NCBI RefSeq assembly: GCF_001429025.1
Contig: NZ_LMHT01000014.1
Span: 83,511 to 147,510 of the forward strand
Length of the DNA: 64,000 nt
Source of the DNA: Phenylobacterium sp. Root700
GTDB taxonomy: Bacteria > Pseudomonadota > Alphaproteobacteria > Caulobacterales > Caulobacteraceae
Direction: 5' to 3'
The position numbers were made by a program, and so were the translations under genes. Positions 26,803 to 36,847 of the stretch are shown here, one piece after another (position 1 is the stretch's first letter; every line of letters begins with the position of its first letter). The notes beneath the pieces are model-generated. The model was not told the origin of the DNA, did not search any database, and worked only from the letters and a program-made list of their open reading frames with translations.

Positions 26803-27654
26803 TCAAGGTTGGGCCGGGATCATGTCGCCCAGGATGGTCGCGAACGGCGAGACCTGCGTCGTGTCCCAGGCGTGGCGGCTGCCGACGGTGATGCCGCCGT
26901 CGACCACCAGATGCGTGCCGGAGACGAAGGCCGCGGCGTCGGAGGCGAGGTAGAGCGCCGCCTGGGCGATGTCGTCAGGCAGGCCGGCCTTCGGCACCGG
27001 TTGGGCCTTGGAGGCGTTCTCGGCCACCTGGGCGGCCATTTGGTCGGCCACTTCGCGCGGCAGGCCGAAGGAGGCGCCGAAGATCGAGGTGGCGATCAGG
27101 CCCGGGCAGATGGCGTTGACGCGGATCTTCTGCGGCGAGAGCTGGGCGGCGGCCACGCGGCTCATGTGAATGACGCCGGCCTTGGCGGTCGAATAGGCGA
27201 TCGGGCCATAGCCGGCCTGCAGCCCGGCGATCGAGGCGGTGTTGATGATCGACCCGCCGCCGCGCTCCAGCATCAACGGCACGGCGTGTTTCATGCCCAG
27301 CGCCGGACCGCGGACCAGGATGTCGAAGATCCAGCTCCAGCCTTCGGCGGTGATCTCGGGGATGGAGCTCATCCGGTCGGAGATGCCGGCGTTGTTGAAC
27401 AGGATGTCGAGGCCGCCGAACTCGGTCTTGGCCTTCTTCACCGCGGCCTCGATCTCGGCCTCGCTGGTGACGTCGCAATGGGCGTAGACGACCTTGCCGG
27501 GGAAACGCTTCTCGAGCATCGCGCCCTTTTCGTCCTGGATGTCGGCGGCGACCACCTGGGCGCCCTCGGCGACAAACAGTTCGACCGTGCCCAGCCCGAT
27601 TCCCGAAGCCGCGCCGGTGATCATCGCCACCTTGCCGTCCAGACGCCCAGCCAT
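26803..27654 (-). CDS. Short-chain dehydrogenase/reductase
   Basis: A 283-residue classical SDR with TGAASGIGLGT for NAD(P) binding, NNAGI, the catalytic Ser in NTASIAG, YSTAK and the PGLIATSIF segment. Asp follows the second strand (AADIQ), which favours NAD over NADP. It has a C-terminal extension beyond VVDGGITVGS. The substrate is unknown. It is the first gene of a probable pair with the EamA transporter. Confidence 0.9.
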   Translation of the reverse strand: MAGRLDGKVAMITGAASGIGLGTVELFVAEGAQVVAADIQDEKGAMLEKRFPGKVVYAHCDVTSEAEIEAAVKKAKTEFGGLDILFNNAGISDRMSSIPEITAEGWSWIFDILVRGPALGMKHAVPLMLERGGGSIINTASIAGLQAGYGPIAYSTAKAGVIHMSRVAAAQLSPQKIRVNAICPGLIATSIFGASFGLPREVADQMAAQVAENASKAQPVPKAGLPDDIAQAALYLASDAAAFVSGTHLVVDGGITVGSRHAWDTTQVSPFATILGDMIPAQP

Positions 27655-27737
27655 GTCTCGCTCCCGTTATGTTTTTATATGATCAGCGATCACTAAAGCG
27701 GCTTCGCCTCGGCGTCGAGGCGCCATCTCCTGAAGTT

Positions 27738-27874
27738 CTTTCCTCCGCTGCGTAGCGGGGGAGGGGGACCGCGCGTAGCGTGGTGGTGGGGGCGAGACTG
27801 GGCTCTGAGCTTGTGGCCGCCCCCTCCACCGGCTTCGCCGGTCCCCCTCCCCCATCAAGATGGGGGAGGAAAAG
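27738..27874. repeat. Palindromic intergenic repeat element
   Basis: The gap between the SDR and quinone oxidoreductase genes is filled by a GC-rich element bounded by CTTTCCTCC (27738-27746) and GGAGGAAAG (27865-27873), with several internal palindromes (CACCGGCTTCGCCGGT, CCCCCATCAAGATGGGGG). It resembles the element at 44623-44745 in its CTCCCCC-rich arms, so it is a dispersed non-coding repeat. Such elements are frequent in Caulobacteraceae. Confidence 0.7.
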
Positions 27875-27879
27875 ACCTA

Positions 27880-28881
27880 TCAGTCGACGATCACGACGAC
27901 CTTGCCCATGGCCTGGCGGCTGCCCAGGTGGGCGATGGCGTCGGCGCCGCGTTCCAGCGGGAAGCGCTCGGAGACGTGCGGCTTGACCTTGCCCTGGGCG
28001 TAGAGCTCCAGCAGCTCGTCGATGCTCTGCGAGAATAGCTCGGGATTGCGCGCCGCCCAGTTGCCCCAGAACACGCCGACGATCTGGCAACCCTTCAGCA
28101 GGGCCAGGTTCAGCGGGATCTTCGGGATGTCGCCGGCCGCGAAGCCGACCACCAGATAGCGGCCTTCCCAGGCGATGGAGCGCAGGGCCGGTTCGGCGTA
28201 GTCGCCGCCGATGGCGTCATAGATCACGTCGAAGCCGTGCTCGCCGCCGGCCTCCTTGAAGAGGGCGCCCAGCGCCTTCTGGCCGTCGCGGTCGAACGGA
28301 CCGCGGCCATAGACCACGCCGGCGTCGGCGCCGTGCTTGATCGCCAGGTCGACCTTCTCTTGGCTGGAGCAGGCGGCGACGACGCGCGCGCCCATGGACT
28401 TGCCCAGTTCGACGGCCGCCAGGCCGACGCCGCCGGCCGCGCCCAGCACCAGCAGGGTCTCGCCGGCCTTCAGGTCGGCCCGATCCCTTAGCGAGTGCCA
28501 GCTGGTCCCGTAGGTCAGGATGAAGGCCGCGGCGATGTCATGCGGCATGGTGTCGGGGATGTGCCACAGGCGGTTGGCCGGCAGCAGGACTTCCTCGGCC
28601 ATGCCGCCCGACCCGGTGTTGGCCAGGATGCGGTCGCCGACCTTCACATTGGTCACGCCTTCGCCGACCGACTTGACCACGCCCGACAGCTCGCCGCCGG
28701 GCGAGAAGGGGCGGGGCGGCTTGGACTGATACTTGTCCTCGATCATCAGCACGTCGGGGAAGTTGACCCCGACCGCCTTGACCGAGATCACCGCGTGGCC
28801 GGGCTTCGCCTCGGGCGCGGGGATGTCCTCGACCACCAGGGTTTCGGGTCCGCCCGTCACCTTGCTGAGCACCGCTTTCAT
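27880..28881 (-). CDS. NADPH:quinone oxidoreductase (zinc-free MDR family)
   Basis: A 333-residue medium-chain dehydrogenase/reductase-type quinone oxidoreductase. The N-terminal GroES-like domain has GVNFPDVLMI and PGGELSGVV. The Rossmann domain has VLGAAGGVGLAAVELGK, and a basic patch near the loop (ACSSQEK) would suit NADPH. No structural zinc cysteines are evident. It probably reduces quinones or enoyl/enone substrates. It is separated from its neighbours by repeat elements on both sides. Confidence 0.92.
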   Translation of the reverse strand: MKAVLSKVTGGPETLVVEDIPAPEAKPGHAVISVKAVGVNFPDVLMIEDKYQSKPPRPFSPGGELSGVVKSVGEGVTNVKVGDRILANTGSGGMAEEVLLPANRLWHIPDTMPHDIAAAFILTYGTSWHSLRDRADLKAGETLLVLGAAGGVGLAAVELGKSMGARVVAACSSQEKVDLAIKHGADAGVVYGRGPFDRDGQKALGALFKEAGGEHGFDVIYDAIGGDYAEPALRSIAWEGRYLVVGFAAGDIPKIPLNLALLKGCQIVGVFWGNWAARNPELFSQSIDELLELYAQGKVKPHVSERFPLERGADAIAHLGSRQAMGKVVVIVD

Positions 28882-33523: not shown

Positions 33524-35029
33524 TCAGCCGACCTTGGCGTGGTCCGCCTTTTCCGTCCAGTCGGACGCCCCGGTCCAGCGCGCCAGCGCGCCGCGCAGGG
33601 CGCCCGGGCTGAGCGGTTTGACCAGGAAATCGTCCATGCCGGCGGCGAGGCAGGCGTGGCGGTCTTCCTCGAAGGCGTTGGCGGTCAGGGCGACGATCGG
33701 GGTCCTGACGCCCTGGGCGCGGGCCTGTTGCGCGGTTTCCAGGCCAGACATCCCCGGCATCCGCATATCCATCAAGATCAGGTCGTAGACGCCGACCGAC
33801 AGCGCGGCCAAGGCTTCCTGACCGCCGCCGGCCTGATCGACGCGGCAACCCTCGCGGGTCAGCAGGGTGCGGGCCAGCAGGGCGTTGATCGGATTGTCCT
33901 CGACCAGCAGGATGCGGGCGCCCGGGGCGGCGGCGGGCGCCACCCGGTCGTCGTCGTGGCGTTCGGAGCGCTCGGCGTGGGCGCCGAGCACGGCGAGCAC
34001 CCGTTCGGCCAGCGAGGCGCGGCGCAGCGGCTTGATCAGGTATCCGGCGTATCCGGCCGCCCGGTAGGCGTCGATATGGCCGCGTTCCTCGGGCGCCAGC
34101 AGGATCAGGGCGGTGCGTCCGGCCGGCGGGGTTTCGGGCGCCACGGCGCGGTCGATCATCAGCACGTCGCCCGGCCCGGTCGCCTGCAGCGCGGCGGCCA
34201 GATCCTTGGCGGCGACGGCGAGCCCGCCGGCGGCGGCGATCTGGCGATGGGCGGCGTCGCTGACGATGGGGTTGGCGCAGGCAATGGCGATGGTGCGGCC
34301 GGCCAGGCTCTGGTCGGGCTGGGCCGGCAGCTGCGTCAGGTCCGCCTCGAACCAGAACGCCGCCCCGCCGTGGGCGGCGGTCTCCACCCCGACCGACCCG
34401 CCCATGGCGGCGGCCAGCTTGCGGGCGATGGCCAGGCCCAGGCCCGCGCCGCCTAGCTGTACGTCGTTCAGCGGATCGGCCTGTTCGAAGGCCTCGAAGA
34501 TCTTCTCGCGCGCCGCGGCGCTGACGCCGGGACCGGAGTCCTCGACCGTGAAGCGCAGGCCGGCGGCGACCTGCGCCACCGTGATCAGCACCCCGCCCTG
34601 GGGCGTGAACTTGATGGCGTTGCCGGCGAAGTTCAGCAGGATCTGGCGCAGCCGGCCCTCGTCGGCCACCGCCTGGCCGATGCCGGCCGGGGCGGCCCAG
34701 GCGATCTCCAGGCCCTTTTCATGGGCGCGCGGCGACAGCAGTTCGCAGACCGAGCGCAGCAGGCTCTCGACCTCGAAGGTGGTGGGGAACAACTCGATCT
34801 TGTCGGCGCCCAGGCGCGCGAAATCCAGCACGTCGTTGACCAGCCCCAGCAGGTGCTCGCCGGACTCGCGCAGGGCCGAGACATAGGCGCGCTGCTCCTG
34901 GGTCAGGCGGGTGCCTTCCAGCAGCCGGGCCATGCCGAGCACACCGTTCAGCGGGGTGCGGAATTCGTGGCTCAGCGAGGCGAGTTGCTCGGCGCTGACG
35001 CGCGGGTCTTGGTTTGGATCGACGTTCAT
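33524..35029 (-). CDS. Soluble hybrid histidine kinase with two receiver-like domains
   Basis: A 501-residue cytosolic kinase with no sensor domain: the phosphoacceptor His21 (SLSHEFRTPLNG) lies at the very N-terminus. The ATPase domain follows (NAIKFTPQGG, DSGPGVS, GAGLGLAIARK). A first receiver-like domain (about 243-348) keeps an Asp at 293 and Lys at 333 but lacks the acidic pair. A canonical receiver has Glu-Asp-Asn at 377-379 and Asp421 (LILMDMRMPG). Partners probably supply the sensing input. It is divergent in target from the neighbouring permease but shares its strand. Confidence 0.93.
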   Translation of the reverse strand: MNVDPNQDPRVSAEQLASLSHEFRTPLNGVLGMARLLEGTRLTQEQRAYVSALRESGEHLLGLVNDVLDFARLGADKIELFPTTFEVESLLRSVCELLSPRAHEKGLEIAWAAPAGIGQAVADEGRLRQILLNFAGNAIKFTPQGGVLITVAQVAAGLRFTVEDSGPGVSAAAREKIFEAFEQADPLNDVQLGGAGLGLAIARKLAAAMGGSVGVETAAHGGAAFWFEADLTQLPAQPDQSLAGRTIAIACANPIVSDAAHRQIAAAGGLAVAAKDLAAALQATGPGDVLMIDRAVAPETPPAGRTALILLAPEERGHIDAYRAAGYAGYLIKPLRRASLAERVLAVLGAHAERSERHDDDRVAPAAAPGARILLVEDNPINALLARTLLTREGCRVDQAGGGQEALAALSVGVYDLILMDMRMPGMSGLETAQQARAQGVRTPIVALTANAFEEDRHACLAAGMDDFLVKPLSPGALRGALARWTGASDWTEKADHAKVG

Positions 35030-35108: not shown

Positions 35109-35489
35109 TCAGCCGGCCGCCATCTCCTGGGCCAAGGCGACCAGCGCGGCCCGGGCCGAGGCGCGGGGAATGGCGGCGTAGGCCTCCAGGAGCTCGGTGG
35201 CCCCGGTCAGGGCGAGGGCCTGCAGGATCTCGTCGGCGGCGTCGGACATGCCGCCCTCCTCGCCGACCAACCAGCCGACGGTGGTGTCCAGGGCCGAGGC
35301 GATCGCCACCAGCATCGAGCCCGAAACCCGGTTGGCGCCGCGTTCGTATTTCTGGATCTGCTGGAAGGACACGCCGACGCGATCGGACAGCACGCCTTGG
35401 CTGATGCCCAGCGACTTTCTGCGCAGCCGCATCCGCGCGCCAATTGCGATATCGACGGGATCAGGGCCTATGGCGTCATCAAGGGGCAT
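35109..35489 (-). CDS. XRE-family helix-turn-helix regulator
   Basis: A 126-residue Cro/CI-type regulator with HTH at about residues 13-70 (VSFQQIQKYERGANRVSGS), the same family as the gene at 5045. The C-terminal half is helical and unassigned. It is divergently transcribed from the LuxR-type gene and shares a 103-base intergenic region with a perfect palindrome. Confidence 0.92.
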   Translation of the reverse strand: MPLDDAIGPDPVDIAIGARMRLRRKSLGISQGVLSDRVGVSFQQIQKYERGANRVSGSMLVAIASALDTTVGWLVGEEGGMSDAADEILQALALTGATELLEAYAAIPRASARAALVALAQEMAAG

Positions 35490-35592: not shown

Positions 35593-36402
35593 ATGCGCGC
35601 ACCGCAAGAGATCGCCGCAGACCCAGTCGAGCTTCTGACCCCTCGGGAGCGCGAATGCCTGCGATTGGTCGACCGTCACCTCAGCTCCAAGCAGATCGCC
35701 CGCGAACTCGGGATGTCGAAGGCGTCGGTCGACACCTATTGCGACCGGGCGCGCAAGAAGCTCGGCGTCGGCGACCGTTATTCCGCCGCCCGGGCGCTCG
35801 CGGCGCGTGAAACCGCTGTCCCGATCGTGTCGGGACAAGACGCAATCAGGACAGACGCCACCGCGCTCCTATGGGCTGATGAAGCCCAGCAAGGAGACCG
35901 GACCGATGGGCGATTGGTTGAGAGAACTGGCGGACGCCAGGGTGACGATGGCGGATCTGGAGCCCGATCGCGGGACGACGAGCCGTCGGGCCGCGGTTGG
36001 ACAGGCGATGCGGGTTCGCGACGAGGTGCAAGCCTTCGAACGCCGCTGGCCGACCCCGCAGAACTCCGAGCCGGTGGTCCCGGGCTTTACCTGGACCCAG
36101 CTCGAACGCCAGCTCGCGGACCTGGCCGACACGCCGTTGAAGGCGAACATGGCGCGCGAACTGGTTTCGGCCACCCGCAAGATGTCGCGTTTCAAGCCCC
36201 CGGAAATGGTGCTGAGGGAAATCCTCTGCCTGACCTGGGCGCTGTTGGACGAGGGCTTCCAACCGGACTTGGAGCCGGGATTGGCGGGCGCACCCTAGGG
36301 CCTGCCGCCCGACTGGGCATGGTGGGCGTGATCGCCATCGTCTCGGCCCTGTCGTTCGGGGCGTTGCTGGCGGGCCTCCACGCCCTTCAAGACCTTTTTT
36401 AG
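35593..36402 (+). CDS. LuxR-type HTH protein with C-terminal membrane helix, overlapped by another gene
   Basis: The frame encodes 269 residues. Residues 15-72 are a LuxR/GerE HTH (LTPRERECLRLVDRHLSSKQIARELG) and residues 241-265 a membrane helix (MVGVIAIVSALSFGALLAGLHAL). This HTH-linker-helix layout is known in Caulobacteraceae and sphingomonads. The HTH and helix parts show strong GC preference at third codon positions. The middle (about 35906-36290) does not, and is rich in Gly, Arg and Asp; there the +1 frame looks coding. So either the linker is overprinted, a gene was inserted, or only the HTH part is translated. Confidence refers to the HTH part. Confidence 0.65.
   Translation: MRAPQEIAADPVELLTPRERECLRLVDRHLSSKQIARELGMSKASVDTYCDRARKKLGVGDRYSAARALAARETAVPIVSGQDAIRTDATALLWADEAQQGDRTDGRLVERTGGRQGDDGGSGARSRDDEPSGRGWTGDAGSRRGASLRTPLADPAELRAGGPGLYLDPARTPARGPGRHAVEGEHGARTGFGHPQDVAFQAPGNGAEGNPLPDLGAVGRGLPTGLGAGIGGRTLGPAARLGMVGVIAIVSALSFGALLAGLHALQDLF
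35906..36298 (+). CDS. Hypothetical protein nested in the LuxR-type gene
   Basis: A 130-residue helical protein starting at ATG 35906 behind AAGGAG (35891-35896), nine bases upstream. Third codon positions in this frame are mostly G or C, unlike the overlapping frame. Segments such as MRVRDEVQAFERRW and MARELVSATRKMSRF look like real amphipathic helices with a Trp-rich core. I do not recognise it. It lies wholly inside the longer HTH frame and stops at 36298 next to the segment coding the membrane helix. Confidence 0.72.
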   Translation: MGDWLRELADARVTMADLEPDRGTTSRRAAVGQAMRVRDEVQAFERRWPTPQNSEPVVPGFTWTQLERQLADLADTPLKANMARELVSATRKMSRFKPPEMVLREILCLTWALLDEGFQPDLEPGLAGAP

Positions 36403-36499: not shown

Positions 36500-36847
36500 A
36501 TGCTTAAGCAACGCCGTATGATCGCCGATCAGGTCGCCGCTAGCCTGTTCGAAGCCGAGGCCGCCATTGATATCGCCCTGGCCAAGACCGCCGGTCTGGC
36601 CGGCGTCATGCCTGGCCTGCGCGCCGACGCCGGCCTCTCGGCCCTGATCGGCCAGGACGCCGTGGAACGGGCCAGCGAGGCCCTTACGCTGCTGGCCCAG
36701 GCCCGCCGCGCCATCTGCGAGACGCACAAGGAACTGGACGTGGCCAAGACCCAGATCGGTCTGGGCGCCGTGATGTACGGCGGCGTGCAGAAGCCGCCGA
36801 ACTTCGCCATGGAAGCCACCCGCCCGCTGCGCGCCGTGGCCAGCTGA
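36500..36847 (+). CDS. Hypothetical helical protein behind a CtrA box
   Basis: A 115-residue protein, starting at ATG 36500 behind CAGGAGATC. It is mostly alpha-helical and Ala-rich, with heptad-like stretches (AASLFEAEAAIDIALAKTAG and AVERASEALTLLAQARRAI) and a terminal MEATRPLRAVAS. No signal peptide or membrane helix is seen. I do not recognise the family. The CtrA box upstream suggests cell-cycle-regulated expression. Confidence 0.8.
   Translation: MLKQRRMIADQVAASLFEAEAAIDIALAKTAGLAGVMPGLRADAGLSALIGQDAVERASEALTLLAQARRAICETHKELDVAKTQIGLGAVMYGGVQKPPNFAMEATRPLRAVAS

Follow-up and report, generated by a model that had tools for sequence, protein, structure and literature searches.

A small conserved gene nested in the linker of a LuxR-type regulator gene: a probable overprinted pair in Caulobacteraceae

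Long genes that lie fully inside another gene are well accepted in viruses, and most of the cases reported from cellular genomes are isolated, young or disputed. Among bacterial membrane proteins that bind DNA, the one-component regulators of the ToxR/CadC kind consist of a DNA-binding domain, a membrane helix and then a periplasmic sensor domain. The locus described here touches on both subjects.

In the lambda Rz/Rz1 pair, the larger gene encodes a membrane protein, and a small gene on its strand lies wholly within it in frame +1. Such embedded copies often go unannotated, and the overlap region of Rz also includes a linker, according to the portions of PMC6139136 at hand. The present pair is like Rz/Rz1 in all of these respects. 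It is unlike them in that Rz and Rz1 are phage lysis genes whose complex is known, whereas here the host is a chromosomal regulator gene and an interaction between the two products is a proposal. The laoB and pop genes of E. coli O157:H7 are likewise bacterial genes called overlapping and attributed to overprinting in the parts of the reports available; judging by the titles they are antisense, whereas the pair described here lies on one strand and is conserved across genera.

A likely case of the same kind comes from C. crescentus, for which the available part of PMC4117421 reports that CCNA_00832 has an internal transcription start, an 804-nt coding sequence and a 360-nt coding sequence in the +2 frame, with peptides detected by mass spectrometry for both frames. 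It is described there as a case of alternative start-site use, and domain, homologue, conservation and neighbour are not given in that part of the text. At five Caulobacter loci of our sample (L251, L255, L256, L257 and L260), the outer coding sequence is exactly 804 nt with its stop, counted from ATG, and the inner one is 363 nt with its stop and 360 nt without it, counted from an ATG, GTG or TTG behind AAGGAG; lengths of 804 and 360 nt counted in one and the same way occur at 0 of 94 loci. Matched by its lengths and frame only, CCNA_00832 is very likely a member of the pair that we describe. It is the sole case of such a nested gene found in the literature, as far as the accessible text of the sources goes, and it is not mentioned in the portions at hand of PMC3951458 and PMC4287350. 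PMC3951458 does give, in that portion, an annotation rule that rejects overlaps beyond a few bases, and this rule may explain why such pairs have stayed hidden.

The outer and inner genes

In the window, the 64,000-nucleotide stretch of Phenylobacterium sp. Root700 DNA that was analysed, the outer gene occupies positions 35593–36402 (+) and encodes 269 residues, with a LuxR-type helix-turn-helix (HTH), a disordered linker and a C-terminal membrane (TM) helix in one continuous frame. The HTH (residues 14–67; 35632–35793, +) scores 46.1 bits against Pfam GerE (PF00196; cut-off 23.5), as a GerE/LuxR-type DNA-binding protein should, and is modelled as four confident helices within residues 17–75. 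In the structure model of the outer protein, the HTH and the C-terminal helices are confident, and nearly all of residues 79–225 (35827–36267, +), in a linker of about 150 residues, fall below a pLDDT of 50. Since most of the overlap with the inner gene is held in this stretch of predicted disorder, the overlap sits in the disordered tether. The membrane helix is predicted at residues 237–268 (36301–36396, +) from a pLDDT of 86–92 in the last blocks and from the hydropathy of homologues. It stops one residue before the C-terminus, with no sensor domain beyond it, and in this the outer gene differs from the ToxR/CadC-like regulators, whose sensor domain follows the membrane helix. Taken together, sequence and structure prediction identify the outer product as a predicted tail-anchored LuxR-type DNA-binding protein, and we infer that it resides in the membrane.

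Wholly inside the outer gene and in frame +1 to it, an inner (nested) gene of 130 codons starts with ATG and runs from 35906 to 36298 (+), with the Shine–Dalgarno (SD) sequence AAGGAG (35891–35896, +) 9 nt before its ATG. In the overlap, the third-position GC content (GC3) stands at 0.84 for the inner frame and 0.496 for the outer frame, whose HTH and TM parts have 0.75 and 0.824. From an alignment of 43 inner proteins, it is clear that the sequence is closely held, with 32 invariant columns that include W, QLERQ, KP.EM and REIL residues. An AlphaFold2 model (mean pLDDT 83) has helices at residues 22–47, 63–73, 77–96 and 99–114, and the inner product is predicted to be small, helical and folded. 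All four features that an earlier note had read from these letters, namely the unbroken frame from HTH to membrane helix, the GC-rich third positions of the +1 frame, a good ribosome-binding site and a plausible inner protein, have been borne out. Searches with the 130-residue product alone, which that note had suggested, returned homologues across the Caulobacteraceae but no convincing known family or fold. There was no match in NCBIfam; the best Pfam match, Wzy_C_2, reached E 0.0073 and appeared in 11 of 40 members, the window protein scoring 14.2 bits against a cut-off of 28.5; and nothing convincing was found among solved structures (best Foldseek E 2.2, best sequence-profile E 0.21).

Distribution of the pair and its likely origin

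Of the 101 Phenylobacterium genomes searched, a match to the outer protein (E ≤ 1e-4) is present in 82, in some of them to the HTH only, and one to the inner protein (E ≤ 0.01) in 81, leaving 20 with no inner match. We have analysed 75 loci of the genus at which the outer match is nearly full-length, 30 of them taken from the search and 45 fetched; two matches at contig ends, in G055 and G041, were left out. At all 75, the HTH, linker and TM helix lie in one open frame with the inner ORF inside it in frame +1. The inner and outer stop codons are spaced by 95, 104, 110, 116, 119 or 122 nt, with the phase always kept. At one locus, L092 of genome G080, an early TAG breaks the inner gene and the outer gene is intact.

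In the whole family, the inner-protein profile matches 123 of 249 Caulobacteraceae genomes, in 9 of 22 genera; 80 of the roughly 101 places outside Phenylobacterium were fetched, and then three more. A sample of the order (299 genomes) contained 40 matching Caulobacteraceae genomes, one of them from a further genus (g14), as well as two weak inner hits outside the family (E about 0.009), and samples of the class (385 and 289 genomes) gave no inner homologue beyond the Caulobacteraceae except one weak hit. The weak hits outside the family (L345, L346 and L347) are not nested in HTH–TM genes and have been rejected. One duplicate was discarded, and the 179 unique Caulobacteraceae loci that encode the inner protein were classified. 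At 174 of them, in 10 genera, the inner gene lies inside an HTH+TM frame on the same strand, always in relative frame 1, which is the embedding of the Rz/Rz1 type (a small ORF wholly inside a larger one, same strand, +1). The same geometry was found at 80 of 80 loci on named contigs, these coming partly or often from genomes already counted.

The earlier note had offered three readings of the layout and chosen none of them: overprinting of a disordered linker, insertion of a gene that kept the outer frame open, and two compensating frameshifts. Recurrence at 174 of 179 loci in ten genera rules out the last of these, and a sequencing error as well. No homologue with HTH, inner protein and TM helix in one frame was seen, and the inner frame, far from lacking conservation in close relatives, is strongly conserved there. 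The overprinting reading is supported by the predicted disorder of the linker, the predicted fold of the inner protein and the number of nested loci.

Among the five loci that are not nested, L114 and L264 have the HTH in the inner frame, and there the TM-side frame still has no stop within the inner domain; in L301 the outer frame stops before any TM helix. At L288 and L304, also within the Caulobacteraceae, the inner gene is present with no HTH detected upstream; it may be a remnant of a nested gene there, possibly free-standing. Because the frames are broken at three of these loci and an HTH was not detected at the other two, the pair is not indispensable. Where both genes are present, HTH and inner-protein distances correlate (r 0.746 for 50 representatives, against a maximum of 0.350 over 2000 permutations), and therefore both genes have been inherited and duplicated together.

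Downstream of the pair lies a conserved small gene that we call DOWN (36500–36847, +; 115 residues; no Pfam or NCBIfam family), found on the same strand downstream of 158 of the 174 nested loci. Its product is helical-looking, and a second, more distant copy is located at G000:C34:341633-341959. On the upstream side, a divergent XRE-type regulator gene (35109–35489, −) has counterparts near 49 of the 75 genus loci, and a gene for a histidine kinase/receiver protein (33524–35029, −) near 72 of the 75; within short flanks, a kinase homologue was seen at 2 of 77 family loci.

DOWN also occurs in 33 of 69 genomes of another alphaproteobacterial family, which we tentatively take to be the Sphingomonadaceae because the plasmid hits of one member are mostly to Sphingomonas, Sphingopyxis and Novosphingobium. 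Of 30 DOWN loci in that family, 14 have an HTH-linker-TM gene directly upstream and 16 have no HTH hit. None of the 14 genes has an inner match, and their linkers span 52–129 residues. In Sphingomonas parapaucimobilis (NZ_CP155750.1), an HTH-linker-TM gene at 27137–27697 is followed by a DOWN homologue at 27751–28098 (E 6e-27), with no inner ORF. The Sphingomonas-type LuxR/GerE genes are like the outer gene in having the HTH, the linker, an RND-type motif before the C-terminal helix and a homologous downstream gene, and are unlike it in lacking an inner ORF and in having a shorter linker of ordinary composition. Since HTH-linker-TM genes and DOWN exist in another family without the inner ORF, the outer gene and DOWN probably predate the inner gene, which appears to have arisen in the Caulobacteraceae.

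Some further relatives were encountered. One Phenylobacterium locus (L120, G030:C16) has two tandem HTH–TM genes of 175- and 144-residue frames with short linkers and no inner ORF, and related HTHs are found inside Sphingopyxis and Sphingomonas proteins annotated as DUF4019 domain-containing (plasmid hits H3 and H4). A class-wide search with the whole outer profile returned mostly ordinary LuxR proteins, with an HTH-linker-TM arrangement at 1 of 29 loci examined.

Two accounts of the origin of the inner gene have to be weighed. A ready-made small gene could have been inserted into the linker with the outer frame staying open, and the shorter linkers both of the 14 relatives in the other family and of the tandem genes at L120 are what this account expects. 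It also calls for a source, and none appeared: inner homologues were confined to the Caulobacteraceae in the class samples (the weak hit L345 is not nested), no match was found in plasmids or phages by tblastn with the window protein as the only query, and none was confirmed in viral contigs. The two HTH-less inner genes, L288 and L304, lie within the Caulobacteraceae themselves and may be remnants. A mobile origin has been rejected on the lack of plasmid, phage and confirmed viral-contig matches. The insertion reading of the earlier note thus keeps its linker lengths but has no free-standing source family outside the Caulobacteraceae, and we consider it unlikely; de novo origin of the inner gene in place is the account that we favour as likely.

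Coding in both frames

The constraint on the outer frame can be checked by a simple property of the overlap. Wherever an inner codon precedes a codon that starts with AA, AG or GA, a T at its third position would create a stop in the outer frame, and we call such a position a hazard position. In 151 loci, which were picked as nested (the outer frame covers the inner domain at 77 of 80 family loci, so that only 3 were removed) and from which L092 was left out for the stop in its inner frame, 0 of the 2912 hazard positions carry a stop-making T, against 373 expected from the rate of T at safe positions in these genes (1064 of 9066). As a control, we took 13 ordinary genes of the window, in which the rates of T are alike at hazard and other positions (85 of 1264 and 413 of 4827). 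When one locus was taken from each 45%-identity cluster (24 loci), the count was 0 of 335 with 47 expected (log10 P −23.6). In the third same-strand frame, there is a mean of 3.66 stops per inner domain, and that frame is stop-free at 1 of 174 loci; the 174 loci used for the clustered and third-frame tests were likewise selected as nested.

The residues that the outer frame encodes in the overlap are constrained only weakly. Divergence at 4-fold sites (L092 again left out) is 0.445 in the overlap, compared with 0.478 for the HTH part and 0.536 for the TM part, and the closest pairs do not show a lower value in the overlap. This gives little evidence of outer constraint, and the outer linker is held mainly to staying open. 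Across 13 representatives, 0.406 of the outer residues in the overlap are alike, compared with 0.351 after synonymous recoding of the inner gene (sd 0.008, maximum 0.370), and in the same comparison by column 11 of 111 columns have z > 3 and none has z < −3. For the inner gene, the amounts of change at its three codon positions are 0.256, 0.214 and 0.410, the third varying most, and in the same representatives the inner protein is more alike across the overlap than the outer one (0.577 vs 0.406). Its ATG is kept at 74 of 75 Phenylobacterium loci, and an SD-like sequence precedes it at 63 of 74, compared with 201 of 1480 random inner positions. Selection thus acts on both frames, as judged by conservation for the inner gene and by the no-stop constraint for the outer one, with weak selection on the outer residues. 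On these comparisons we regard real dual coding as nearly certain.

The inner frame could instead encode a domain of the outer protein that is joined to the HTH by programmed frameshifting, since in some species it extends upstream without a stop through much of the HTH and since L114 and L264 do have HTH and inner domain in one frame. This account is very improbable and has been rejected: the conserved ATG and SD of the genus point to an independent start of the second frame, a TGA immediately 5′ of the inner ATG means that no readthrough fusion is made at L031 and L093, and PMC4117421, in the available part, places a transcription start inside CCNA_00832.

The idea that the inner ORF is the sole gene, with the HTH and TM parts separate or dead and the linker frame open by GC-rich chance, agrees with the third-position GC over 35906–36298 and with the weak constraint on outer linker residues, but a chance open frame is rejected by the hazard positions and the third-frame control, and the constant phase of HTH and TM in 174 loci of differing lengths, together with the one-frame relatives that share the downstream gene in another family, makes it extremely unlikely. 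Equally so is the converse, in which the outer gene alone is real, as the only frame with a recognised domain, and its choice of codons produces the inner ORF incidentally; this is at odds with the higher identity, the variable third positions, the invariant residues and the conserved start signals of the inner gene, and with its presence at two loci where no HTH was detected.

The 40-bp element and the proposed roles of the pair

A 40-bp cis element lies within the outer coding sequence upstream of the inner start (35817–35856, +). It consists of a dyad and a third half-site, TGTCCyGA-N5-TCrGGACA-N8-TCAGGACAGAC, also written TGTCCyGA-N5-TCrGGACA-N8-TC.GGACAGAC, and it is present at 75 of 75 Phenylobacterium loci. 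Its arms are perfect 8-bp complements at 69 of these (the sixth position is T/A in 58 and C/G in 11) and have one mismatch at 6; of the eight pairs, one covaries (11 of 33 distinct rows) and six never vary. The element lies 89 nt from the inner ATG at 71 of 75 loci and 86 or 92 nt from it at three; at L092, where the choice of ATG is unsafe, the distance is 170 nt. Over the 14 codons of the element, third-position identity reaches 0.826, whereas equally long windows of the HTH do not exceed 0.672. In 13 of the 14 genomes that were searched, a single perfect dyad is present, and in the remaining one, G050, one arm differs. In Caulobacter, a different conserved block is found at the corresponding place (two groups of 15 and 8 loci).

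We have taken the element as a putative operator, acting on an internal promoter from which the inner gene would be transcribed. Because it is nearly unique in each genome, the HTH of the outer protein itself is the candidate that we would name to bind it, an assignment that is close to evenly balanced and stays tentative. It is also possible that the element acts as RNA rather than as DNA: the fold of 35810–35910 is stable (z −4.21), although the dyad does not form a hairpin in the fold of minimum energy.

It is highly probable that the locus is an ancient overprinted gene pair on one strand, for which we propose roles as tether, internal start and partner. The outer protein would place its HTH in the cytoplasm on a long disordered tether that is held by one membrane helix at the extreme C-terminus. 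The inner gene, with its own ATG and Shine–Dalgarno sequence within the tether-coding DNA, would encode the small helical protein; the dual coding itself is borne out by the comparative evidence. The 40-bp dyad element would control the internal promoter of the inner gene, and binding of the outer HTH to the dyad would give self-control of that promoter. Most likely, the inner protein would be soluble and act on the tethered regulator as its partner or modulator, and the DOWN protein may be a third member of the partnership. That the inner protein acts together with the outer one we hold to be slightly more probable than that it does not. The tether can tolerate double coding because openness and flexibility are needed there, not a particular sequence. 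In a fuller reading, a speculative one that we place below an even chance, three messages share one stretch of DNA: a regulator's tether, a +1-frame protein that arose de novo, and an operator through which that regulator controls the promoter of its nested partner. Under the three-message reading, the inner protein would have been born at the base of the Caulobacteraceae and retained since then in at least ten genera, with duplication alongside its host gene.

Double coding at 174 loci in ten genera, with an internal control (0 of 2912) and probably with published peptides, is unusual for cellular life. It also means that annotation rules barring overlaps can hide a conserved gene. The pair offers a tractable system for studying how a protein originates inside another gene, and one in which to ask how overprinting is accommodated by disorder and whether partnership is common among nested genes.
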